Shown piece after piece: positions 31,436 through 46,410 of a DNA stretch of 64,000 nucleotides. Each line of letters opens with the position of its first letter. The stretch's first letter is position 1. A program made the position numbers and the translations under genes. A model generated the notes under the pieces. That model made no database searches and was not told the DNA's origin. It saw only the letters and a program-made list of their open reading frames with translations. Source of the DNA: Providencia rettgeri (GTDB lineage Bacteria > Pseudomonadota > Gammaproteobacteria > Enterobacterales > Enterobacteriaceae); NCBI RefSeq assembly GCF_041075285.1, contig NZ_CP163512.1, forward strand, positions 1,860,001 to 1,924,000, read 5' to 3'.

Positions 31436-31521
31436 GTTTGAGATATAAAGTGAAGTTGTAATAAACCTTAACAACCATACAGTTAAAAATGCTAAGCCAA
31501 AAAATGTCAGGGTCAACTTTT

Positions 31522-32433
31522 ATGAAGAAAAATTTATTTCGATTATCTGCACCTCTACTTACCACAGCATTTGCATTAGTTGCAATGCTGTTTATTAGCC
31601 AACCGGCGTTCGCTAAAAAGTTTAAAGTGGTCACAACATTTACCATTATTCAAGATATTGCTCAAAATGTAGCCGGAGATGCGGCAATTGTCGAGTCAAT
31701 TACCAAACCAGGGGCTGAAATTCACGGATATCAACCCACGCCGAAAGATATTATGAAGGCTTATGATGCCGATTTAATCCTATGGAATGGTATGAATTTA
31801 GAAGTTTGGTTCCAACGTTTCTTTGAAAACTTTAAAAATGTCCCTGCGGTCGTTGTTACCGAAGGCATTGAGCCGATGCCAATTCGCGAAGGGGAATATA
31901 AAGATAACCCAAATCCGCATGCATGGATGTCACCTGCCAATGCCAAAATTTATATTGAAAATATTCGTCAAGCATTAGTTAAATATGATCCGGAAAATGC
32001 AGAAATCTATAATACCAATGCCAAAAATTACACACAGCAAATTGAAGACCTTGATGCTCCGCTGCGTGAACGTTTAAACCGTATTCCAGAAAATGAGCGC
32101 TGGTTGGTGTCCAGTGAGGGGGCTTTTAGCTACCTGACGAAAGATTATGGCTTTAAAGAAGTCTACTTATGGCCAATCAATGCGGAAGAGCAAGGTTCCC
32201 CACAGCAAGTCAAAAAAGTGATTGATACTGTGCGCCAACATAATATCCCTGTGGTCTTTAGTGAAAGCACCATTTCGGATAAGCCTGCTCGTCAAGTCAG
32301 TAAAGAAACGGGGGCTAAATATGGTGGGGTTTTATATGTGGATTCACTGTCCACCGCAGATGGTCCCGTACCGACTTATATCGACCTGTTAAAAACGACT
32401 GTAGACACGATAGCGAAAGGATTTTCACAGTAA
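31522..32433 (+). CDS. yfeA: Mn/Fe ABC transporter periplasmic binding protein YfeA/SitA
   Basis: This is the metal-binding lipoprotein-like receptor (cluster A-I) for chelated Mn and Fe import. ATG 31522 gives a Sec signal ending QPAFA (about residue 31). Metal ligands expected from the family are H68 ([11 protein letters not shown]), H133 (NPHAWMSP), Glu in SSEGAFSYL and Asp in [11 protein letters not shown]. The sequence resembles Yersinia YfeA ([28 protein letters not shown]) more than E. coli SitA. It is first of four genes. Confidence 0.92.
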
Positions 32434-35154: not shown

Positions 35155-36504
35155 TTATTTTTGTAAAGTCCGGGGTTGCTGGTGCACCGTGGTATTACGC
35201 TGTTGCCCTGCTTCTTCCATATCATAAACTTTCATTTCACTGCTACCTGCGGGTAAAGCCCGTTCTACCAACAGTTCTGCCCCCGATTGCGCAATTAAAT
35301 CTTGCAGTTGCTGATGCTGGCTACACCAAATGGCATCAATATCTTTGTCTCGTTGAAGATCTCTATTTGCAGATAGTGCCACTGTCCGTGTTTGAAAACG
35401 GGATTGTTTTCCACCCAATTCTAAGCCATAACCGGGCGTTGCCGGATGCCTGACCACGACTTTGCCTTCATCCATCCATGCTTGAACATCTGTTTCTTGA
35501 ACTTGATACCCCAGTTTACTTAAACCATCTAACACGGTTGTTCTTTGTGCTTTTGCAACAACAGTTTGTTCCGCCAAATTAATCTGTGCTGCTAATTGCT
35601 CAACCAATGACATTAACTCAGTCACTGAACTGGAATGCATGGCAGCGAGTGCCTTATCAACCATGACACTATTTTCATTATCTGTAAAAATAGCCAGTTG
35701 CGCGCACAATTGTTCAACTTTATCCATCAGCTCAATATGTTGCTGAGTTGATTTCAATTGTTGTGCCATGGTGAGGAGCAATGAATCCGCTCGCAAATGG
35801 CGCTGTGAGCTTTCATCCATAGCTTGAATTTCAACGAGTTGTTGCTGCGCACTCTGCGCCTCTGCCAAGCATCCCAACAACTTAAGCTTTTCAATCATCA
35901 GTAAAATTTGCTCGCATTGCTTGGCAAACGGCGATTGTGGAATGCCCTGCTGCCAAAATTGAGGGACATCTTCCGATTGTGCCTTTAGCTGACTCAATAA
36001 TTGATTTGCAAACGGTGAAAGTGGGTTTTGAAGGTGGTTTAATGCCTCTAATGCACGGAAAATTAATAAGTTTTCGGCCTTTTCTGTCATTAAATCGGTA
36101 TTTTCCAACTCTGCGATTAGCTGCTTTTCAAGGGGCAGTTTTTCTCGCACTAACGCCGCTAATGACTCAATATTATGTTGACGATGGGCTTTTGTGCGAG
36201 CCACCAGCGCCTGCTGTTCAAGTTGTTGTTCACGAACCGTTTGAATTTCTTGCTTTACTATTTCATTAAACTCAGCTAACTCACGCTGTAACGAGGTTAA
36301 GCGGCTCGCTGATAATGTGGTGATATCATGCGCCGATAGTTGCTGAAACAATGTCGCAATTTGCTCAACACGGGATTGGTGATATTGCGTTGTATTGGCT
36401 ATTTTTTGCCATTGTTGGAATATCTTACTGCTAACCGCTAGTTGCCGACGGCACTGGATCTCATTCATTTCTCTAACATTAATACGATGAACGGATGAAC
36501 TCAT
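35155..36504 (-). CDS. Coiled-coil protein, fourth gene of helicase operon
   Basis: This 449-residue protein is almost entirely helical, Gln/Leu/Glu-rich and predicted coiled coil (about 15-330). A small C-terminal globular part follows (about 335-420: LDGLSKLGYQVQETDVQAWMDEGKVVVRH, ...DIDAIWCSQHQQLQDLI). I recognise no named domain. It overlaps the end of the large helicase gene by four bases (start 36504, helicase end 36501), so the two are probably made together; a structural or adaptor role for the helicase is the simplest guess. Confidence 0.8.
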   Translation of the reverse strand: MSSSVHRINVREMNEIQCRRQLAVSSKIFQQWQKIANTTQYHQSRVEQIATLFQQLSAHDITTLSASRLTSLQRELAEFNEIVKQEIQTVREQQLEQQALVARTKAHRQHNIESLAALVREKLPLEKQLIAELENTDLMTEKAENLLIFRALEALNHLQNPLSPFANQLLSQLKAQSEDVPQFWQQGIPQSPFAKQCEQILLMIEKLKLLGCLAEAQSAQQQLVEIQAMDESSQRHLRADSLLLTMAQQLKSTQQHIELMDKVEQLCAQLAIFTDNENSVMVDKALAAMHSSSVTELMSLVEQLAAQINLAEQTVVAKAQRTTVLDGLSKLGYQVQETDVQAWMDEGKVVVRHPATPGYGLELGGKQSRFQTRTVALSANRDLQRDKDIDAIWCSQHQQLQDLIAQSGAELLVERALPAGSSEMKVYDMEEAGQQRNTTVHQQPRTLQK

Positions 36505-39500
36505 AATTCGCCTTCTTGGTTGGTCGTCACGCTCAGAGAGCCATTTAAACGTAATGATGCATCAACAATCGCATCCTGTAACCGCTGCTGCGCTAACGCT
36601 TTGTCATTGTACCATTCAATAATAGAAACACGGTGACGTTGTGGTATTACACGGCTTAAGATATGGCTGCGCCATAACTCCCGTGATCTGGCCGTTTGCA
36701 AAAGAGGGTGTGATGGCATATCGCATTCAATCCCCATTAATAATTGTCCGGTTACTTCATCTTCAATAATACAATCAAAATGAAACACTTCTTTTTGGGT
36801 TGATTTAGTGACTTGCCAGCCATTTTTTTCAATAAATTCAACCACTGACGCCACAAAAGCACTTTGCTCTTTATCTGCCTCTTGCAGGGCAAATTGTGTC
36901 TGGCACATACGATGAAGCAATTTTTGGTTCTCTTTTTGTTTTGTTGGGTCACACGCGTCCTTTGCATAGGCGAGATAACCTTGTAGATAATCTCGTGGGA
37001 TCTCAGGCTTGCGGTAGGTCGTTAATAAATCTGATATTTCTTCCACAGGCATTGATGTCATGATCACAACTTGTTGCTTTGCACGGGTGATAGCCACATT
37101 GAGACGGCGTTCCCCACCCGTTTGCCCTAGTACACCAAAGTTACGCCTAAACGTCCCTTGTGCATTGCGACCAAATGTGGTGGAAAACAAGATAATATCG
37201 CGCTCATCTCCTTGCACATTTTCCACATTTTTGACAAAGAAGGACATATCCTCTTCATCATGCATACGTTGGTTTTCTTCAATATAGGCAGCCAAAAAGT
37301 GGGCATCCTGTTCTGCTCGCAAACGGATATGCTGGTTAATCAGTGTGGTTTGTTTTTGGTTAAATGTCACAACCCCCACCGATGGACGCAGGGTAAATGG
37401 CAATTGCCACAATGTTGCGAGGTGGTCAACAACCGCAGCGGCTTCGGCCTCATTACTTTGGTTCACGTACACACCATTCACTGTTACAAGCTGCAACGGC
37501 TTAATTTTACTCACTAATTTTGCGGAGAACTGCGCTGGAATATTTAAGCGGTTTTCATAGAAGGCAAAATTTGAAAAGTTGATCAGCTCTCGATAAGCTG
37601 AACGGTAGTGAATATCAAGGGTATGTATAGGCAACACGGTACGCGCCAAATGCAACAAGTCAGGGCAATCAGTAATCTGCCGATAGTCCCACACTTCATC
37701 AGCTTCTTCTTGCTGTTCATCCACATCATCATTATTGTCTTCTTCAACTGGTTTCCCTGTGAAGAACTTCGATGGCGGCATTTGTTTCTCATCGCCGCTA
37801 ACAATCGCCTGCTTCGCTCTAAATAACGTCGATAATGCAAATTCAATCGGCATTTGTGATGCTTCATCATAAATCACACTATCAAACATCGCCGCTTGTA
37901 ATGGCAGCACTTGGCTTGCTACATCCGGTGTCATCAGCCAGATAGGACGCAATTGCATTAAACCAATTTCACGCCCTTCATTAATAAATTCCCTCAGTCG
38001 ACGTGCCCTTGGCCCCGTAAGCCGTGTGATTTCTTCCCATTCACGACGACTTCCTATTTGAGTCAAGTCATAGTTACAGGTCAGCGCTTGGCGGTTAAAC
38101 AGTTGCAGTTGTTTTTGTGCCTGTTCAAGTTCGGCTAAATCCGCCATAAATTGTGTGCTATTGGCTGAAAGTGCAGGTAATTTGATATCAAATTGTTTTT
38201 TGACAAAACGATAAAAGCCATAGTTAATCGTCTGGATCAACACCGTAACCCAATCTTTTTGGTGACTGTTGTCGTGAATATATTGCGTAACGGTAGGATG
38301 CAGTGTCGCTAATATTTGCCAATGTTGCTGAGTAAAATGCGCAGTAATTTCTCTAAATAATTGATACTTAAGTAAATTATCTTTCTCTTTAGCAATTTGA
38401 ATTAATTCATCGCTAAAAGATTGCCCCTGATTAATTGCCTGTTGGAAACGCTCAACAACTTGTACTGAAAAAACGGAACTCATCCGATTTAGTTGGTACG
38501 AACTTTCAAGTCTGGCTTTCACCCTCGCGATGGCAGATTGAACCTCATGGCACTGGCGCTCAAACCCAATTTGTTGTTCGTCTACAATAGCAGGTAAAAA
38601 ATGTGAAATTTCAGGGTATTGAACCAGTAATTGACTCGAACTTTCCACCCATTTTAATTGGGCGATTAATTGTGGTAAGTGGGTTCGCCAATCGGGCTGA
38701 AACACTAGGCCAATTTTTTGATAAATAGGCATAATTTCTTGTGCCAGTAACCGCCACTGTTGCTCAACACCGATCGTTTTTTGCAATATCGGCAGACGCT
38801 CCTGAGTTAACCCGCTTTCAGCAATCAATTGCTGTAACTGATTATATCGCCTGTAATAAAAAGGGTTGAAGAAACGTAACCACGAACCTTGCATTGACTC
38901 AGTAACGGCACGAGATAATTGCGCCAATTTAGTGGTTTCAATACCATCGAATAGCGGGAGCAACAAGGGGTCTATCTGAGCTTCATCAATCAATAATAAA
39001 CGCTGGTAACACCGTTCTAACGAGTCAATGACTGCTGTTCCCGTCGTAATAGAACCTTGTAAATTGATAAACAACCCTAACCACCGAGATAAGTCTTGCC
39101 ATTGCTCCTGTGTTTGTTGGCCAAAATGCGCCTTTAGCTGAGCCAATACAGGCTCATGATTTGTCAGCCTATCGAGTGTTATGCTTTGATTCGCGGATTG
39201 GTAAAGTTGATCCCGTTGTTTTTCCACCTCAATAAATGAGCTAATAACTTGATTAAATAGCGTATATTGATGGTCGTTCACAGAAAACTGTGCCAGTAGC
39301 TTTAGCGCACTATGCTCATAATCTAATTGCCACCATGTTTGAGCATGCTGTTTAATATCATCAATAAGTTGTGCAAATGTAGATTGATTAAATTCAGCAA
39401 ATACCTGTGCTAACGCCTCATCATTAAGGGGTAAGCGCTCTAAAGGTTCCACCTCAATTAACTTGTCGAGAATATATTTATAGGATAGCTGCCAATGGTC

Positions 39501-42500
39501 ATCAATATCATTGAGTGCGTGGTAATAACCATCGAGTTTTTGTTCAAAAAAGTGTACTCGACTGAGTAAACGAACGCGTTCTGCCTGCCAGTCTTGCCCA
39601 AATAGGGCGTTGTTCTCTTTACTCCACAGTTGCTCAATTTGTTCACGCACTGCCAAAATAACATCGCGGCCTTTTTGGTTCTGGTTGATAAGCAATGCTC
39701 TGTCCCCTAACCCACTAGCAACCAATCGCTTATATACCACCTCAAGCGCCGCAGGCTTTTGGCATACAACTAATACCGTTTGTTGGCGACCTAACGCGTC
39801 CGCAATTAGGCTAACAATTGTTTGACTTTTCCCTGTTCCTGGAGGCCCTTCAATTAATAACCCTGTTTGTTGTTGCGCAGCTTGCACGACCCGCTCTTGA
39901 GAAGGATCGGCAAGGGACAGCGCAAATGGGCTTAAGATATTTTCTTGATTAATAATAGGTTTAGGTAAATTCGCTGAATTAACATTTAGTAAAGTAGACA
40001 GTGCCGTTTGCGCAATGGAGGTGTGGGCGATTTGCTGTAGATCGCCACTCATCGCCTGACCAATAAATGATGTATGGAACAGCACCGCTGAGCAGACAAT
40101 CTGCGCGGTGTTTTCTTCAACAGGTTCCGCTAATGAAGGCAACGGAAGCAACTGAGCCCCCTGTATTGGCAGCAAAGCAGACAAACTCTCCATAATCTCG
40201 TCGATGCTTAGCCCCGCTTTAGACAATAAAGCCTCTAAAACGCTCTGCCATTTGTTCATCGCAGGGATCCCCGCAAAGCTTGCTAATGCGGGGTTAAGTC
40301 GAACAGCCCCGCGCTCATGGTCAAAACCCAATTGGAGAGGACTTTGCTGCGCAATAGCAGATTGTAATGCGATAGGCCATAAAAATAGTGGTGCAATCCG
40401 TGGCTTAATTTGGTTTGGCTGGGTATTTAAGACTAAAAAAGGGAACCCTAAATACATACCATTAATACCGGTATCCCGTTGATATAATTGTGTATCTGCT
40501 TGTAACATTCTTAAGCGAGTATTGACCCCTTTGCGCTGTAGCAGCATATCGCTATCAATGGTTATCATCCCTTTTTTACGGTTAAGTAGATGCTCCAATA
40601 ACGCACTTGCACTGCGCGCAACGCTACCACATTCGGTTAAATCAATACGCCCTGTATTGGGTGTTAAGCGCATGCGGACTAAATTCCCCCGCTGCGTCAC
40701 GGCGGTCAGCTTTTGGTTAAAAAAGCGCAAAACTTCTAAAATATATTTTTGTGACTCTGGAATTTGCCAGTGTTCAAGCGGTACAGCTAACAACACCAAT
40801 GTTTTCTCAAGAGAAAGCCTACGCATCAGTAAAAACTGGTCAACCCAACTGTCTAATACTGCCAATCCAACCCGTTTGAAATCACTTGTTCGATCACTGA
40901 GCTGTAAATATAACGCCTTACGTGGTAATAACAGCTGTTGTTTGGCTACTTCGCAGTCAAAGCTATGAATATCATTTTGTTGTGCAAGGTTAAAAGCTTG
41001 TTCAACCAAGGTTGATACCGAAATAAACTGACCAATATCCGCACTTAATAACAGAATATAATCAATTTCTTGTGGGTTTTGTTTATCAAATAGCCCTTGT
41101 AAACTTTCATTATGAGAATCCGGGAATTGCCCATGGAACAATGCCCATCTTGCTGACAATTGATTGATTGACGTAACGAGTAAATATAACCTGAGACTTT
41201 CTTCATTGAGGATAATATTGAGTTGATTTGCCCGTTCACGCACTAAGCATTGGCGATGATAAAGCTGTACTAACCAATGCTGTGGATCAATACGTTGAAT
41301 ATATTGGTTGATAGGTTCACTAATTAGCGCAAAGGCTAAATACGGATTTTCCAGCAACCATGCTGGGGTAATAATTTCACCGCGATAAATCAGCGGAATA
41401 TTGTCATTCAGGATTTTTAAGGCGAGGGTTAGTTTAATATCATCAACGTTTTCTTGTTGAAAATCCCCCTCAAGCAGTGTTTGCAATTTCGCCAATTGCC
41501 CTTGGCTATTTTCAAATTGGGCTAACCAAGAACTCACATCGCCACGCAATAAAAGTGGTAGTGCCTCATCCCAATGAGCCGCTTGTGCCGCTATTAGTGC
41601 GAAAGCCTCAGGTTGTTGCAATTGCTGCCCAGCAAACGCCAATGTGTGTAAATTGTTTGGGATAAGGGTTACTTGGCGCTGTGGTGCTTGCTGTGGTTTT
41701 CCTTGTAGCCACGCACTAACTTGTGGCCATTGCCAACGTAAAAAACGATCGCGACACAATAGCCCACGTAGTAATAATTGAATATTCGGGTGTAACTCTT
41801 CAGGCAGCTCAACACCGTTAGTCATCACTTGAATAAGAAACGCATTATCTTGAACATGCGCGAAACACTGCCCTCGCGTCAACTGCTCTAAAAGGATGAT
41901 CCCTAAACTCCACCAATCTGATGCGGCACTGACACCGCCAGCAAGGATTTCGGGGGCGGAGTAACGAGAAATATCGAGGGGTGTCACAATATCAAGGTCA
42001 AACTCGGATAAACAAGCTGAGCCGTATTCAATCACCGCAATATCAAGGGGGTGACGGCTACGAATTAGTAGATTAGCTGGACACAAATTACGGTGACGTA
42101 ACCCATGCTCCGCAAACGCAGCGATCGCCCGCCCCATTTCTTCCACAAGTTTCGCAATTTCATCTGCCTGCCAAAATTCACCTTGTTGGATAAATTGACT
42201 TAATGAACCGCCCTCAAGCATTTCGGTGACATGCCATGCGCGATTTTCAAAGCGGCCAGTGTCATAAAACTCAGGAACATGATCCGTTGGGATGCGTTTA
42301 AGCGTTTGGTAGACTGCGGGATCAGGCTCTTCTCCTTTTAGGTACAAGGTCAATACGCCACTTTTTTCTTCTTGATTATGTGTAACAAAATAACGTTCTC
42401 GCGGGCTATCAACACTGTTAATCCGCCTTTCGATACGCCAAGGCCCAATATATTGAACAGGTGACGACGAAACAACAGCCGCTGGCTCTACCGCCGCATC

Positions 42501-42785
42501 GGCCCCGCACTCAAGGCAGATAAAATCATCCTCTGCCATAGGGTGACCATTTTCACAGTAGCGTGCAGGTGCGTTTTCGGTTTCCTTTTCACCACGGGTT
42601 GGTACTTCGATGGGACTAACTTGTCTTGTTTCGGGACGCCAACCTTCAGGATGGATAGGCTCAAGGGTAAGATCCCAGCCACAAAGTTGAAATTTTGCCT
42701 GTTCGGTTTGAATTTGCCCCGCACAAAATATTTCAGTTAGCGGTCGTTCTGTTAAGCAATGTGGGCAAAAACGTATCATCGTCAT
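36501..42785 (-). CDS. Zinc ribbon / pseudokinase / SF1 helicase / nuclease-like fusion
   Basis: This 2094-residue multidomain protein has two Cys clusters at the N-terminus (C7, C10, C21, C35; C77, H81, C90, C93). A protein-kinase fold follows (about 112-330): the catalytic loop reads HRNLCPANLL (HRD is HRN at 231-233) and DFG is EYG (253-255), while APE and SDWWSLG remain, so it is probably a pseudokinase. Next comes a UPF1/COG1112-type superfamily 1 helicase, with Walker A GPPGTGKS (980-987), Walker B DEASQ (1640-1644) and motif VI AITRAKQQ near 1900. Motifs I and II are about 650 residues apart because of a long helical insert. The C-terminal domain (about 1990-2090), with FHFDCII and MGIECDMPSH, resembles the VSR/PD-(D/E)xK-like nuclease of COG1112 proteins. 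It is the third gene of the operon. It resembles Mokosh MkoA by kinase plus helicase; function is inferred. Confidence 0.82.
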   Translation of the reverse strand: MTMIRFCPHCLTERPLTEIFCAGQIQTEQAKFQLCGWDLTLEPIHPEGWRPETRQVSPIEVPTRGEKETENAPARYCENGHPMAEDDFICLECGADAAVEPAAVVSSSPVQYIGPWRIERRINSVDSPRERYFVTHNQEEKSGVLTLYLKGEEPDPAVYQTLKRIPTDHVPEFYDTGRFENRAWHVTEMLEGGSLSQFIQQGEFWQADEIAKLVEEMGRAIAAFAEHGLRHRNLCPANLLIRSRHPLDIAVIEYGSACLSEFDLDIVTPLDISRYSAPEILAGGVSAASDWWSLGIILLEQLTRGQCFAHVQDNAFLIQVMTNGVELPEELHPNIQLLLRGLLCRDRFLRWQWPQVSAWLQGKPQQAPQRQVTLIPNNLHTLAFAGQQLQQPEAFALIAAQAAHWDEALPLLLRGDVSSWLAQFENSQGQLAKLQTLLEGDFQQENVDDIKLTLALKILNDNIPLIYRGEIITPAWLLENPYLAFALISEPINQYIQRIDPQHWLVQLYHRQCLVRERANQLNIILNEESLRLYLLVTSINQLSARWALFHGQFPDSHNESLQGLFDKQNPQEIDYILLLSADIGQFISVSTLVEQAFNLAQQNDIHSFDCEVAKQQLLLPRKALYLQLSDRTSDFKRVGLAVLDSWVDQFLLMRRLSLEKTLVLLAVPLEHWQIPESQKYILEVLRFFNQKLTAVTQRGNLVRMRLTPNTGRIDLTECGSVARSASALLEHLLNRKKGMITIDSDMLLQRKGVNTRLRMLQADTQLYQRDTGINGMYLGFPFLVLNTQPNQIKPRIAPLFLWPIALQSAIAQQSPLQLGFDHERGAVRLNPALASFAGIPAMNKWQSVLEALLSKAGLSIDEIMESLSALLPIQGAQLLPLPSLAEPVEENTAQIVCSAVLFHTSFIGQAMSGDLQQIAHTSIAQTALSTLLNVNSANLPKPIINQENILSPFALSLADPSQERVVQAAQQQTGLLIEGPPGTGKSQTIVSLIADALGRQQTVLVVCQKPAALEVVYKRLVASGLGDRALLINQNQKGRDVILAVREQIEQLWSKENNALFGQDWQAERVRLLSRVHFFEQKLDGYYHALNDIDDHWQLSYKYILDKLIEVEPLERLPLNDEALAQVFAEFNQSTFAQLIDDIKQHAQTWWQLDYEHSALKLLAQFSVNDHQYTLFNQVISSFIEVEKQRDQLYQSANQSITLDRLTNHEPVLAQLKAHFGQQTQEQWQDLSRWLGLFINLQGSITTGTAVIDSLERCYQRLLLIDEAQIDPLLLPLFDGIETTKLAQLSRAVTESMQGSWLRFFNPFYYRRYNQLQQLIAESGLTQERLPILQKTIGVEQQWRLLAQEIMPIYQKIGLVFQPDWRTHLPQLIAQLKWVESSSQLLVQYPEISHFLPAIVDEQQIGFERQCHEVQSAIARVKARLESSYQLNRMSSVFSVQVVERFQQAINQGQSFSDELIQIAKEKDNLLKYQLFREITAHFTQQHWQILATLHPTVTQYIHDNSHQKDWVTVLIQTINYGFYRFVKKQFDIKLPALSANSTQFMADLAELEQAQKQLQLFNRQALTCNYDLTQIGSRREWEEITRLTGPRARRLREFINEGREIGLMQLRPIWLMTPDVASQVLPLQAAMFDSVIYDEASQMPIEFALSTLFRAKQAIVSGDEKQMPPSKFFTGKPVEEDNNDDVDEQQEEADEVWDYRQITDCPDLLHLARTVLPIHTLDIHYRSAYRELINFSNFAFYENRLNIPAQFSAKLVSKIKPLQLVTVNGVYVNQSNEAEAAAVVDHLATLWQLPFTLRPSVGVVTFNQKQTTLINQHIRLRAEQDAHFLAAYIEENQRMHDEEDMSFFVKNVENVQGDERDIILFSTTFGRNAQGTFRRNFGVLGQTGGERRLNVAITRAKQQVVIMTSMPVEEISDLLTTYRKPEIPRDYLQGYLAYAKDACDPTKQKENQKLLHRMCQTQFALQEADKEQSAFVASVVEFIEKNGWQVTKSTQKEVFHFDCIIEDEVTGQLLMGIECDMPSHPLLQTARSRELWRSHILSRVIPQRHRVSIIEWYNDKALAQQRLQDAIVDASLRLNGSLSVTTNQEGEL

Positions 42786-42801
42786 CCCTCTATCCCGTGA
42801 G

Positions 42802-43431
42802 TTATTTTTTAATTTGTTTTAGAGTACTGTCTTGTTGTGCAAGCAATTGGCTCAACCGCTGCATATCATCACGTTCGGGGATCCCCGCAATAAATAATCG
42901 TCCATGTTCATCAAAAGCCAAATCCAGTTTTTTATCTTCTGGCGTCCTAGTGCGTTGGTATTGTTTAAAAACTTCTTTTCCAAGTGGCGTGAAAAGATGC
43001 AGTTGTTGATTATCACTACCTCGCAGCACTAATGTTTGTGGTAGTTCAACTTTAAATGGCTCGCTAATTAATGCATCTATATATGGCGTCATTCGTTCAA
43101 CACACGCTTTGATGGCTTCCCATTCATAACCGCTATATACCAAGATATCTCCATGAAACTGCTGTTTTATTTCACGAATCAATGTGTATAAGGCATCTGG
43201 CTGCTCAAACGGTTCTCCCCCTGAGATAGTGATACCATCCGCGAAGGGAAGCCACTGTTGAATGTGCTCAATCAACTGTGCCACCGTAAAATAACTTTCT
43301 TTCTCATGCCACGTATCAGGGGATAAACACCCCTTGCAGCGCAATGAACAGCCTTGAAACCAAATACCGACCCGCTTCCCTGGCCCTAAAGTCGTAATCG
43401 GGAAATGGAGCCGTGAGACACGAATATTCAT
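42802..43431 (-). CDS. Radical SAM protein, NrdG/activase-like
   Basis: This 209-residue protein has the 4Fe-4S motif GCSLRCKGC (C28, C32, C35) and the SAM-contact motif ISGGEP (69-74). The short CxxxCxxC pattern and WFQGC context match anaerobic ribonucleotide reductase activases and related single-cluster enzymes. Those make glycyl radicals on partner proteins, but no glycyl radical enzyme is nearby. It starts 4 bases after the AAA+ gene and ends 16 bases before the helicase gene, so it belongs to the operon. Its substrate is unknown. Confidence 0.85.
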   Translation of the reverse strand: MNIRVSRLHFPITTLGPGKRVGIWFQGCSLRCKGCLSPDTWHEKESYFTVAQLIEHIQQWLPFADGITISGGEPFEQPDALYTLIREIKQQFHGDILVYSGYEWEAIKACVERMTPYIDALISEPFKVELPQTLVLRGSDNQQLHLFTPLGKEVFKQYQRTRTPEDKKLDLAFDEHGRLFIAGIPERDDMQRLSQLLAQQDSTLKQIKK

Positions 43432-43435
43432 TAGA

Positions 43436-45274
43436 TTAATGACCTAGCTCAGTGAGCGTGAGTTGCGTATTTTCCCCCATTTGTATATGCGTAATTTGGT
43501 AAGCACGGGTTGCCGATATATCGTGATCAAAGATTGCCCTTGATAACGGGTTAATTAAATGCATTTCTAATTGATTACGTATGCCACGTCCACCGTTGGA
43601 TAAATCCGCCAAACAACTCGCTTTTAATGCTTCTCTTACTTCCTGTGATATTGAAATGGTCAATGATTGTTTTTCTAAACCTGACAAGATGTTATTCACC
43701 ATTTGATCAAAGATTTGCTGTGCAATATCTGGACGAATAAAGTCAAAAACAATAATGTTTTCACCAATGCGATTGAGTAACTCCGGACGGTTAAGAACCA
43801 ATTTAAAGTGGCGCTCTATTTCATTTTTGACATTGCGCGTAACCGTTTCAAACGGTTCATGAGGTTGCACATTGGCCACTCTCTCCCCATTCGCATCTAA
43901 ACGGTAAATACCGAGGTTTGAAGTAAAAATAATCAAAGCTTCCGAGAAATAAACCCGATCACCACGTCCTGATGTTAAAACACCATCATCGATAATCTGT
44001 AAAAATTTATCCATCAAATGCGGATGCGCTTTTTCAATTTCATCAAACAACACCACACTAAAGGGTTTTTCACGGATCGCGTTGGTTAATTCCCCTCCTG
44101 AATCATAGCCAACATAACCTGGAGGCGCGCCAATAAGTCGCTGATCAGCATGTTCAGCACTAAATTCAGACATATCAAAGCGGATATAGGCACTTTCGTC
44201 ACCAAATAGTAACTGGGTAACTGTTTTAGCCAGTTCCGTTTTCCCTACGCCAGTTGGTCCAGCAAGGAACAACACACCACGGGGTCGCCCACCTTTATTG
44301 CTCCCCACCCCTGTCATTGCCCGTTTGATAATATCTAACAAATGTGTGACGGCATGCTGTTGACCTTTCACTCGTCGTGAAATCACCTCGGGGGCATTGT
44401 GAATTTTTTGCTTATCAATCTTTTTCCACGGATCTTCAGTGATCCCCACTTTGTATCGGCGAACGGCATCACTGATACAGCTTGCCGGCACCTGTTCAAT
44501 GCGGGCTAACTGTACAATTGCGGTTAAATCTAATAAAAGTAGCCCTTCAGTTTCATCAACAAAATCATTAAATAGTGAGGCCTTATCAGCCTCTTCAATG
44601 CATTTAAAATCCGCGAGGGAGGCTAATAAACTGGGGGCTAACAGACGGCGCATTTGCCCATCCGGTTTAGCAACAGGAATGACTCGAATCCGTGGGTTAT
44701 TTACCACAAACCAATCGGGTAAATCGGTCTCTTTTTCCACTATCCAAAAAATAGTATTAAAAAAGGGTTGGTTTTGTTCCCCCGCAGGTCTTGCTTTTCC
44801 TTGATGGGATGCCACTAGTGCACGGGTAAATAAACTGTGTTCTGCTGGAGTAAGGTTATCACGATGGGAGATCAAACAAGAGGCAAAATCAATACATAAT
44901 GCCATCGGCTGCTGTTTATCTTGAATAAATTTATCAAGCAGATGGTTAAGCATATCAATACCACCAGCGGCTTTGCCCTGCGAAACATTTAATCCAAGCC
45001 GTTGCATCACCGCATCCGTTTCTTGGCAATTTAACGCAGGATCCGCAACACATTGAAAACCGACCAATGGCGTATAAGTTAATACATATGCATAACCCAC
45101 TTTAAATAAGCTATTCAATAAGGATTGGTTAAATGGTAAAGGCGTTACAATCGAGGGAGCTAGTTCACTGGCTTGTAAATCCCGTACATTACCACATAAC
45201 ACAAACTGACTTTTCAGCGGAATAAATCGCAGTAAGTCCCTTAACCAACGTGGATTTTGAAAATCAGTATGCAT
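43436..45274 (-). CDS. ClpB-like AAA+ ATPase, first gene of helicase operon
   Basis: This 612-residue protein has a C-terminal ClpA/B-type AAA+ module. Walker A is GPTGVGKT (339-346); RFDMSEFSAEH and GAPPGYVGYDSGG are the substrate pore region; Walker B is FDEIEKAHP (about 410); FTSNLG is sensor 1; and a C-terminal ClpB D2-small domain ends the protein (GRGIRNQLEMHLINPLS). The N-terminal half (about 1-290; FVLCGNVRDL, PDWFVVNNPRIRVIPVAKPDGQMRRLL) looks like an AAA fold without Walker A. No ClpP-docking loop or protease domain is seen. It is transcribed first and divergent from yniA. Confidence 0.85.
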   Translation of the reverse strand: MHTDFQNPRWLRDLLRFIPLKSQFVLCGNVRDLQASELAPSIVTPLPFNQSLLNSLFKVGYAYVLTYTPLVGFQCVADPALNCQETDAVMQRLGLNVSQGKAAGGIDMLNHLLDKFIQDKQQPMALCIDFASCLISHRDNLTPAEHSLFTRALVASHQGKARPAGEQNQPFFNTIFWIVEKETDLPDWFVVNNPRIRVIPVAKPDGQMRRLLAPSLLASLADFKCIEEADKASLFNDFVDETEGLLLLDLTAIVQLARIEQVPASCISDAVRRYKVGITEDPWKKIDKQKIHNAPEVISRRVKGQQHAVTHLLDIIKRAMTGVGSNKGGRPRGVLFLAGPTGVGKTELAKTVTQLLFGDESAYIRFDMSEFSAEHADQRLIGAPPGYVGYDSGGELTNAIREKPFSVVLFDEIEKAHPHLMDKFLQIIDDGVLTSGRGDRVYFSEALIIFTSNLGIYRLDANGERVANVQPHEPFETVTRNVKNEIERHFKLVLNRPELLNRIGENIIVFDFIRPDIAQQIFDQMVNNILSGLEKQSLTISISQEVREALKASCLADLSNGGRGIRNQLEMHLINPLSRAIFDHDISATRAYQITHIQMGENTQLTLTELGH

Positions 45275-45543
45275 GGTTTTCCCTTGTTATTTAACTTTTT
45301 TGCAGTTTACCTGAATATCTCATACAACGCGCTGGTATATCACGATAACAAGCAAATATCTGAACATTCTCAATCTGATAAAAAGCCGCTAGCTTTTAAT
45401 TTACGATCATTTCTTTTTATACATAAAATGCCTAAATAACTATTTCGTGATAGGTGCTTCTTTTTAAACAATTATCACTGTTAATTCCTAAACTGTCGCT
45501 ATAGTATTATGATAATGAAGACCAAAGCAGAGCGAGGTGAGTC

Positions 45544-46410
45544 ATGTGGCAAGCAATGTGTCGTTTATTAAGTGAACACTTAGGTGAAGCGGAGCTGCGT
45601 AACAAAGTCATTCTCTCTGGTGGTGATATTCACCATACGTTAAGAATTGACTATGGTGAACATACCGTGTTTATCAAGCAAAATCGGCGAGAGTTTCTGC
45701 CGTTATTTAAGCAAGAAGCTGAACAGCTCGAAATGCTTGCCAAAAGCCAAACCATCACCGTTCCCAAGGTGTATGGTGTTGGCAGTAATAAACATCATAG
45801 TTTTCTTCTTCTCGAATATTTCCCGTTAAAGCCATTTGATACCACTAACGCTTGGCACTTTGGTCAGCAACTCGCCCGCTTACATCAATGGGAAGAGCAA
45901 CCCAGCTATGGCTTTGATTTTGACACCATGCTCAATACCATTGTTCAACCAAATGGCTGGGAAAAACGCTGGAGTTCATTCTTTGCAGAAAAACGCATTG
46001 GTTTGCAATTACAGCTAGCGTCTGAAAAGGGTATGGTATTTGGCGATATCCAGCAGCTTGTTGATATTGTCAAAAGTAAATTAGCAGGTCACCAACCTCA
46101 ACCCTCTTTATTACATGGCGATTTATGGCCCGCAAATTGTGCCATTACCCATCAAATTGATGGCGTTCTTTATGATCCAGCATGTTATTGGGGAGATAGG
46201 GAATGTGATATCGCGATGTTGCCTTTATATAAAGAAATTCCTATTCAAATTATTGATGGTTACCAAAGTGTTTGGCCATTACCACAGGGCTTTTTGGATA
46301 GACAACCTATTTACCAATTATATTATTTGCTCAACCAAGCTCATATTTTTGGTAATGAGCAGAGCTATTTGCAAGCCCAAAAAATCGTTGATTCGCTATT
46401 AAAGGAATAA
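45544..46410 (+). CDS. yniA: Fructosamine kinase family protein YniA
   Basis: This 288-residue aminoglycoside phosphotransferase-fold kinase belongs to the fructosamine/ketosamine-3-kinase family, which phosphorylates glycated amines for repair. The catalytic loop is SLLHGDLWPANC and the metal-binding motif is YDPACYWGDRECDIAM. The nucleotide lysine is in YGEHTVFIKQN. It matches E. coli YniA in size. yniB and hxpB (yniC) follow, as in E. coli, but yniB is inverted here. Confidence 0.9.
   Translation: MWQAMCRLLSEHLGEAELRNKVILSGGDIHHTLRIDYGEHTVFIKQNRREFLPLFKQEAEQLEMLAKSQTITVPKVYGVGSNKHHSFLLLEYFPLKPFDTTNAWHFGQQLARLHQWEEQPSYGFDFDTMLNTIVQPNGWEKRWSSFFAEKRIGLQLQLASEKGMVFGDIQQLVDIVKSKLAGHQPQPSLLHGDLWPANCAITHQIDGVLYDPACYWGDRECDIAMLPLYKEIPIQIIDGYQSVWPLPQGFLDRQPIYQLYYLLNQAHIFGNEQSYLQAQKIVDSLLKE

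Follow-up and report, generated by a model that had tools for sequence, protein, structure and literature searches.

A run of four genes occupies the minus strand at positions 35155-45274 of the window, by which we mean the whole analysed stretch of 64,000 nucleotides (positions 1,860,001-1,924,000 of a 4.35-Mb single-contig Providencia genome). An earlier note on this DNA had seen in these genes a possible new defence system, and its account of the layout – four genes on one strand, gaps of 4 and 16 bases, one overlap of 4 bases, a place between yfeABCD and yniA – is reproduced exactly by the open reading frames (ORFs) and by the flanking genes: YfeA lies to the left at 31489-32433 (about 476 bits to the solved YfeA) and a fructosamine-kinase homologue to the right at 45544-46410. 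The names of the remaining genes of the yfeABCD transporter, and that of yniA, are the ones we take to apply. The operon encodes, in order of reading, a Clp-like AAA+ ATPase, a radical SAM protein, a giant protein and a coiled-coil (coil) protein. The closest protein relatives are from Providencia, G+C content at the operon is not unusual, and no tRNA was found by ARAGORN in the 64-kb window.

The four genes form one unit, and about this we have hardly any doubt. An alignment of 16 giant-protein homologues and two peptide patterns were scanned against one genome per species (84,980 species); a relative was encoded in 303 of the 337 matching stretches at E ≤ 1e-3, and the best 80 loci were retained. 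These come from Alpha-, Beta- and Gammaproteobacteria plus one Chlamydiota metagenome-assembled genome (Simkania) and one member of the Bacteroidota (Nonlabens). Order and strand of all four genes are preserved in 73 of the 80, with intergenic distances of -26 to +34 bases: they travel together, as the idea of a system in the earlier note supposed. Three of the seven exceptions are contig ends (L046, L060, L063); the others are an internal TGA in the giant gene (L029, the same record as G013), a coil piece of only 183 amino acids (aa) placed 778 bases further on (L044), a distance of ~1.6 kb between the radical SAM and giant genes (L100), and a giant gene on its own in Saezia (L089), where the ATPase is absent genome-wide at E 1e-100. 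Pairwise distances in the four families are correlated (r 0.87-0.96, n=73; reached by 0 of 999 permutations), most strongly for the giant and coil proteins (0.958, n=73); since the distance matrices share organismal history, the correlations show co-inheritance and not contact. A fifth partner gene was looked for and rejected: no neighbouring family recurs at a fixed place, and flanks are common only to related carriers. A family combining a RecB nuclease with a superfamily 1 (SF1) helicase, presumably TM0106-like, recurs no more than five genes from the operon at 7 of the 80 loci (L049, L062, L065, L075, L080, L081 and L082), mostly Alphaproteobacteria and Simkania.

The ATPase (Pfam AAA_2 and ClpB_D2-small) has a model whose residues 5-612 align to the D1 and D2 modules of ClpC. 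The P-loop and Walker B DE of D2 are found in all 78 family members; the pore loop reads GYVGY in 66 of the 78, with Y387 and Y390 at 100%. A P-loop is present within the first 260 residues in none of the 78, which does not fit a ClpB or ClpC with two active AAA rings. Partnership with ClpP was likewise rejected, the [ILV]G[FL] motif being lacking from all 78 within residues 453-486, the segment searched. In both respects the protein differs from ClpB, ClpC and ClpV, and it scores 260.6 bits against a ClpB cut-off of 1232.

The radical SAM protein matches Pfam Fer4_12 and falls slightly short of the Radical_SAM cut-off (28.8 vs 29.5), with CxxxCxxC and GGEP in all 79 family members. It keeps both motifs, together with GS.NQ (presumably an NrdG feature), and in this resembles the NrdG and PFL activating enzymes; it differs from NrdG in its score (95.7 bits vs a cut-off of 126.1) and in a C-terminal extension of ~60 aa, and from both activases in that no glycyl-radical enzyme is among the operon's four genes. 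The role of an NrdG glycyl-radical activase was rejected on that score and on the lack of a conserved glycyl-radical-like motif in the partners. In the giant family such motifs are scattered (24 occurrences in 80 sequences, for the five commonest forms), and none was noticed in the window copy.

The giant protein begins with two zinc ribbons, of which C7, C10, C21 and C35 are conserved in 100% and C77, C90 and C93 in 99% of 80 family members. A kinase fold follows whose catalytic residues are lost family-wide: of 80 sequences, 3 keep the DFG Asp and 70 the HRD Asp (the window copy has Asn there), none has a Lys at residue 147, taken as the position of the VAIK Lys, and 2 and 9 have one at residues 149 and 150. 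An active Ser/Thr kinase was therefore rejected. The C-terminal half has fared differently. Helicase halves AAA_11 and AAA_12 match best over residues 960-1076 and 1719-1911 (Pfam); GPPGTGKS and DEASQ are each conserved in 79 of 80 and the columns of GGERRLNVA.TRA in 95-100%, as expected of an SF1 helicase. In the restriction endonuclease (REase) domain at the C-terminus, D2004 and E2020 are invariant (80 of 80), D2022 is kept in 78 and H2026 in 79. The giant protein has thus retained the motifs of a predicted helicase and nuclease and lost the catalytic residues of a kinase.

No Pfam family reaches its cut-off for the fourth protein. Its AlphaFold model (predicted local distance difference test score 87) consists mostly of long helices, with an alpha/beta domain formed by an N-terminal strand and a C-terminal sheet. 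VIA-align returned KA1 and eIF2-alpha rows of borderline Z mixed with helical rows, so that likeness of the modelled C-terminal domain to KA1 is a lead only. Fold searches of PDB and BFVD returned nothing at E ≤ 0.001; the best sequence match among solved structures is a designed protein (E 0.017). Pfam, motifs and AlphaFold together bear out the parts that the earlier note had listed (ClpB-like AAA+, radical SAM, zinc ribbons, kinase fold, helicase, nuclease, coiled coil), including its label of pseudokinase for the domain that Pfam matches as Pkinase.

Features of the four-gene operon, in window coordinates (bit scores are given against the cut-off of the model)
Feature	Position	Strand	Basis or remark
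Gene 1, ClpB/ClpC-type AAA+ unfoldase, 612 aa	43436..45274	-	
Degenerate D1-like AAA module, residues 1-260 (boundary approximate)	44495..45274	-	ClpC alignment
D2 AAA module (P-loop, Walker B, aromatic pore loop), residues 261-595	43490..44494	-	
Gene 2, NrdG-like radical SAM protein, 209 aa	42802..43431	-	
CxxxCxxC cluster-binding motif, residues 28-35	43327..43350	-	conserved in family
Gene 3, zinc ribbons, pseudokinase, DUF4011/SF1 helicase and Vsr-type nuclease, 2094 aa	36501..42785	-	
Two zinc ribbons, residues 5-95	42501..42773	-	conserved cysteines
Pseudokinase domain, residues 113-360	41706..42449	-	Pfam Pkinase 160-356
DUF4011 match, residues 748-835	40281..40544	-	Pfam 36.7 bits vs 22.2
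SF1 (COG1112/UPF1-like) helicase core, residues 959-1911	37053..39911	-	split by long insertion
MTES_1575/Vsr-type REase domain, residues 1977-2073	36567..36857	-	PF18741 55.9 bits vs 38.2
Gene 4, coiled-coil protein, 449 aa	35155..36504	-	
Conserved C-terminal alpha/beta domain, residues 331-430	35215..35514	-	conservation and model

Relatives of the ATPase and the radical SAM protein are also found beside other partners. A search of the phylum with the ATPase alignment (E ≤ 1e-130) returned four carriers of the operon and one further genome, G433, in which a single minus-strand run holds coil, ATPase, radical SAM, zinc-ribbon FHA, PP2C and Ser/Thr kinase genes and two genes for proteins with FGE-sulfatase domains. 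(These two FGE-sulfatase, or formylglycine-generating-like, genes are adjacent and follow the kinase, at L135 316-2984; both proteins begin with hydrophobic stretches that by eye look membrane-spanning.) The G433 ATPase matches 20 plasmid records, 8 of which are of the window type; among the 7 examined from the remainder, those from five genera (Moellerella, Polaromonas, Photobacterium, Leisingera and Acinetobacter) show an arrangement of helicase, PIN, hypothetical (~370 aa), ATPase and radical SAM genes. MkoA scores 320 bits against the helicase of the Acinetobacter copy, and MkoB a weak 22.9 bits against its PIN protein. The same type of operon, with a coil gene after the PIN gene, lies at 1188-10907 of L193 (Acinetobacter sp. 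WCHA55 plasmid pNDM1_010055, whose name carries NDM1), and a second radical SAM gene, a gene for a tetratricopeptide-repeat protein and insertion sequence elements are nearby.

Signalling genes recur elsewhere. A plasmid of Aristaeella lactis (Bacillota) carries genes for a DUF4011 protein, a kinase, a 430-aa protein, FHA, radical SAM, ATPase, PP2C and a second kinase; in Geminocystis, ATPase, radical SAM and coil-like genes lie within the same 20 kb. In G257, where other ORFs intervene over ~11 kb, the ATPase (45.7% identical) and the radical SAM protein (38.6%) are accompanied by FHA, an intact kinase and a coil protein. The last is significantly related to the product of gene 4 (E 4.9e-15 against 1,887 sequences; 8.1e-14 for the C-terminal domain); the top match in that search is the shortened coil gene of L057 (326 aa), which is under the length filter of the coil set. 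A tree of 28 ATPases groups the window type as a clade (100/99), with G257 beside it (100/99) on a long branch. The four-gene unit itself contains no FHA or PP2C member, its flanks not having been searched specifically for either. That related ATPase and radical SAM genes occur with other predicted effectors and with signalling genes is new here.

These loci also bear on the origin of the giant protein. When its profile was searched against them (E-values set for 10,000 sequences), positions 113-467 matched the G257 kinase (E 3.1e-55), and the G433 kinase was matched at E 4.2e-32. On the Aristaeella plasmid, positions 97-463 matched a kinase (E 1.6e-27) and positions 1612-2090 the DUF4011 protein (E 3.2e-75), which is partly within the stretch read. 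Since kinase and helicase-nuclease are separate genes on that plasmid, the giant protein is most simply a fusion, and probably one of parts that are separate elsewhere. In the two FHA-type loci G433 and G257 the homologue of the pseudokinase is, by its HRD and DFG motifs, an intact kinase. The order in which fusion, loss of partners and loss of catalysis took place we infer.

The operon is patchily distributed. Of 24 genomes of the genus, 12 have both the ATPase and the giant gene and the others neither, so that here the set is not the universal housekeeping neighbourhood that the earlier note had allowed for. In eight of the 24 the operon fills the yfeD-yniA interval (about 10.5 kb), and ten have a short empty site there (0.2-0.44 kb); in four the operon is 0.37-0.40 Mb away and yfeD-yniA holds 2.8-3.2 kb of other DNA, and two have other DNA at the site and no operon. 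The genomes with 2.8-3.2 kb of other DNA are G001, G002, G009, G013, G019 and G021 (L110, L113 and L114). One genome, G011, lacks the operon, yet its flanking genes are as close to those of the window as the flanks of carriers are. Its intergenic region has collinear matches of 15 and 21 bases to the ends of the occupied site (E 0.018 and 0.001), and another 15-base match with the same E is non-collinear; the remnant signal is weak, and weakly consistent with loss of the operon.

Beyond the genus the giant gene was found in 2 of 369 genomes of an even draw across the class (E ≤ 1e-100) and in 4 of 398 of a draw across the phylum (E ≤ 1e-200), the window genome included in each. ATPase and giant gene are co-present in those 4 of 398 if the broken copy of G605 is counted: here (L137 9800-13962) the giant gene lies in two overlapping frames and covers only profile positions ~3-1264 of 2095, with ATPase and radical SAM genes present and no coil gene found in 19.9 kb. 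Ten plasmid records match the giant protein (E ≤ 1e-100); the eight that hold at least 80% of it are megaplasmids (7 Rhizobium, 1 Caballeronia), and all eight also hold the ATPase. A 4,000-base stretch had no DNA match in E. coli, a search that a relative of 40% protein identity would escape. One contig of the IMG/VR collection (L141, IMGVR_UViG_3300031825_000373) stops shortly past an ATPase with 59% identity to that of the window, so that any further operon genes would fall outside the contig; its viral label may be wrong.

Upstream of gene 1, at window positions 45357-45377, stands the motif TATCTGAACATTCTCAATCTG. Little changed, it recurs ahead of the operon at five occupied Providencia sites (the window, L108, L109, L022 and L023; L108 and L021 are one genome, as are L109 and L023), and part of it is found at one empty site (L105). 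The motif may be a promoter or operator sequence.

What might such a unit do? That it is one multi-protein machine of conflict or defence, directed against phages or mobile elements, we regard as the likeliest reading, though by itself an even call. The half of the giant protein that would be the effector is closest to the conflict profiles PDC-S37, ProA and Hhe. Two protein clusters named P. aeruginosa comprise 3,452 and 2,367 member sequences; the PAO1 operon is presumably PA2725-PA2728, annotations having been seen for PA2727 and PA2728 alone. According to one study (PMC10250203), the P. aeruginosa DUF4011 gene forms the right border of the core defence hotspot cDHS1, and a radical SAM gene is in the same flank. 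The same study found this gene in each isolate, a constancy that would be unusual in a typical gene of defence.

This last point weighs against a defence role, and so do several others. Phages hardly carry the operon: there is 1 partial match in 50,697 phage records (E ≤ 1e-20) and 1 in IMG/VR, searched with two peptide patterns, and a phage or prophage origin was rejected on this account. Searches of the open-access literature turned up no functional study of any member and no experiment with phage. Nor were the near flanks (two genes either side, 63 dereplicated loci) cleanly enriched in defence genes: 118 of 190 ORFs, hand-picked and possibly biased, matched 170 PADLOC models, a number inflated by many Gabija models (AbiEi was also matched); 5 of 20 members scanned singly had matches to defence profiles; and three loci had strong matches, L053 and L062 to Gabija genes next to them and L048 to a neighbouring PDC-S06. 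A control from genomes of the window's order (123 of 133 ORFs, 16 of 18 stretches) matched 16 PADLOC models; it was not taxon-matched yet was PADLOC-positive, and we therefore claim no enrichment. The idea of a shared set of partners meets its own difficulties. In G176 coil and ATPase genes were found by blastp in 19.9 kb without a radical SAM gene, and in G427, G175 and G290 no partner was found by blastp in the 9-12 kb read. Profile-profile comparison of the window coil family with the coil proteins of two other operon types, PIN and G433/Aristaeella, gave no significant match, these being represented by only 5 and 2 sequences; equivalence of coil proteins across operon types is significant for the G257 variant only. 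Nor do the radical SAM protein's three partners offer it an obvious site: the glycyl-radical-like motif is absent from the coil and ATPase families and conserved in none of the three.

A fuller proposal is tentative, and we would put it short of an even chance: the operon would be an undescribed modular conflict machine in which a Clp-like unfoldase with an inactive D1 and an active D2, an NrdG-like radical SAM protein and a coil adaptor, perhaps KA1-like, make up a chassis for interchangeable nucleic-acid effectors and signalling parts, the giant protein being a kinase-helicase-nuclease fusion whose kinase, formerly a partner of FHA (and PP2C) proteins, later became a scaffold. The mechanism we have in mind is speculative and unlikely to be right in all its details. 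The giant protein would act as the effector: it would unwind nucleic acid, foreign or damaged, and cut it with its Vsr-type nuclease. The coil protein would hold the zinc ribbons and pseudokinase in a switch that keeps the effector off or senses a target; the giant-coil pair is the one with the most correlated divergence. The radical SAM protein may introduce a radical-based modification into one of the operon's proteins or into a host partner; the unfoldase may pull on a component so as to arm or dismantle the complex. The pseudokinase would derive from an active Ser/Thr kinase of the kind that stands beside FHA (at some loci PP2C) genes in the sister operons – a descent that suggests replacement of phospho-signalling by a fixed scaffold.

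Among other explanations the best placed, though we consider it unlikely, is genome maintenance: a repair or fork-processing machine working on the cell's own DNA, in which the unfoldase would remove protein-DNA blocks and the helicase-nuclease would process the DNA. The helicase is SMUBP-2-like, PA2727 and PA2728 are classed under replication, recombination and repair in PMC4918941, and PMC10250203 describes a core gene in every P. aeruginosa isolate examined. A maintenance function is, however, difficult to reconcile with the lack of the operon in half of the genus (12 of 24 genomes) and in 394 of the 398 genomes of the phylum (E 1e-200), with a horizontally scattered and megaplasmid-borne distribution, and with related ATPases that accompany a PIN protein or kinases instead.

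Rather improbable, in our judgement, is a stress- or redox-responsive system of proteostasis and signalling, in which unfoldase and SAM-dependent modification control host RNA or DNA and have no role against mobile elements. Sister loci do pair the related ATPase and radical SAM protein with FHA and Ser/Thr kinase (in two loci also PP2C), and gene 2 belongs to the family of NrdG-like enzymes, which are oxygen-sensitive; but the effector of the window type joins a helicase to a nuclease of REase fold, the best profile matches of this half are conflict proteins, and the distribution is patchy and mobile.

We hold it very improbable that the operon is Mokosh-like, that is, an MkoA-like kinase-helicase effector with extra partners. 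Mokosh presumably shares with it a COG1112-type helicase and a kinase fold, fused (as we assume) in MkoA, and MkoA models match both the giant protein (145.6 bits) and, more strongly, the PIN-type helicase. Mokosh is defined by a phospholipase D (PLD) nuclease partner, MkoB, or a fused PLD, MkoC, whereas the window operon has no PLD gene, has lost the kinase residues, and combines an REase-fold nuclease with three other conserved genes. The best MkoA stretch is profile 790-1077 of 1112, the C-terminal helicase part, the best MkoC stretch covers giant residues 1633-1988, and ProA, PDC-S37 and Hhe outscore MkoA. With no PLD domain in the four proteins, MkoB not among the matches listed and MkoA matched in part, membership was rejected, in line with the earlier note's remark that a PLD gene is missing and that ATPase and radical SAM partners are foreign to Mokosh. 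Chance association of functionally unrelated neighbours has next to no probability: tight spacing alone can be coincidental, but order and spacing are kept in those 73 distant loci where other flanks are mostly different.

How, then, does the operon compare with described systems? Against Pfam, PADLOC 2023 and NCBIfam (June 2026) the possible new system of the earlier note holds up in part: PADLOC profiles match portions of the proteins, and we found no named system covering the four genes, either in these profile libraries or in the open-access literature. No NCBIfam model reaches its cut-off for any of the four. The best PADLOC match is PDC-S37, a phage-defence candidate (475 bits, residues 959-2080), which is alike in the SF1 helicase and REase stretch; it differs in that the match takes in profile positions 294-1345 of 1550 and leaves the zinc ribbons and pseudokinase of the giant protein uncovered. 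From its name we take PDC-S37 to be a single-gene candidate, whereas the window unit has four conserved genes. The anti-phage proteins ProA (NF058533) and Hhe (NF042953) align over DUF4011, helicase and C-terminal nuclease, but their entries name no radical SAM, unfoldase or coiled-coil partner, and membership of either was rejected (485.6 bits vs a cut-off of 1500, and 295.1 vs 2000). The vWA-MoxR/FtsH ternary conflict systems are ATPase systems that in some variants, according to PMC7159879, include a radical SAM protein; they differ from the window operon, in whose four proteins Pfam finds no vWA, MoxR or FtsH domain. The predicted effector half is of a known kind, that of SF1 helicase-nuclease conflict proteins. 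If the modular conflict machine is real, then a defence-like system would have been represented in one study merely by a DUF4011 gene that marked a flank in every P. aeruginosa isolate (PMC10250203). It would present an evolutionary series, from an active kinase with FHA and PP2C partners to a fused pseudokinase scaffold, and would make concrete and testable the questions of the radical enzyme's substrate, the unfoldase's target and why different effectors share the same partners. It would also join radical-SAM chemistry and protein unfolding to the cutting of nucleic acid and would, to our knowledge, be the first defence system in which radical SAM modification and an unfoldase jointly license a helicase-nuclease.

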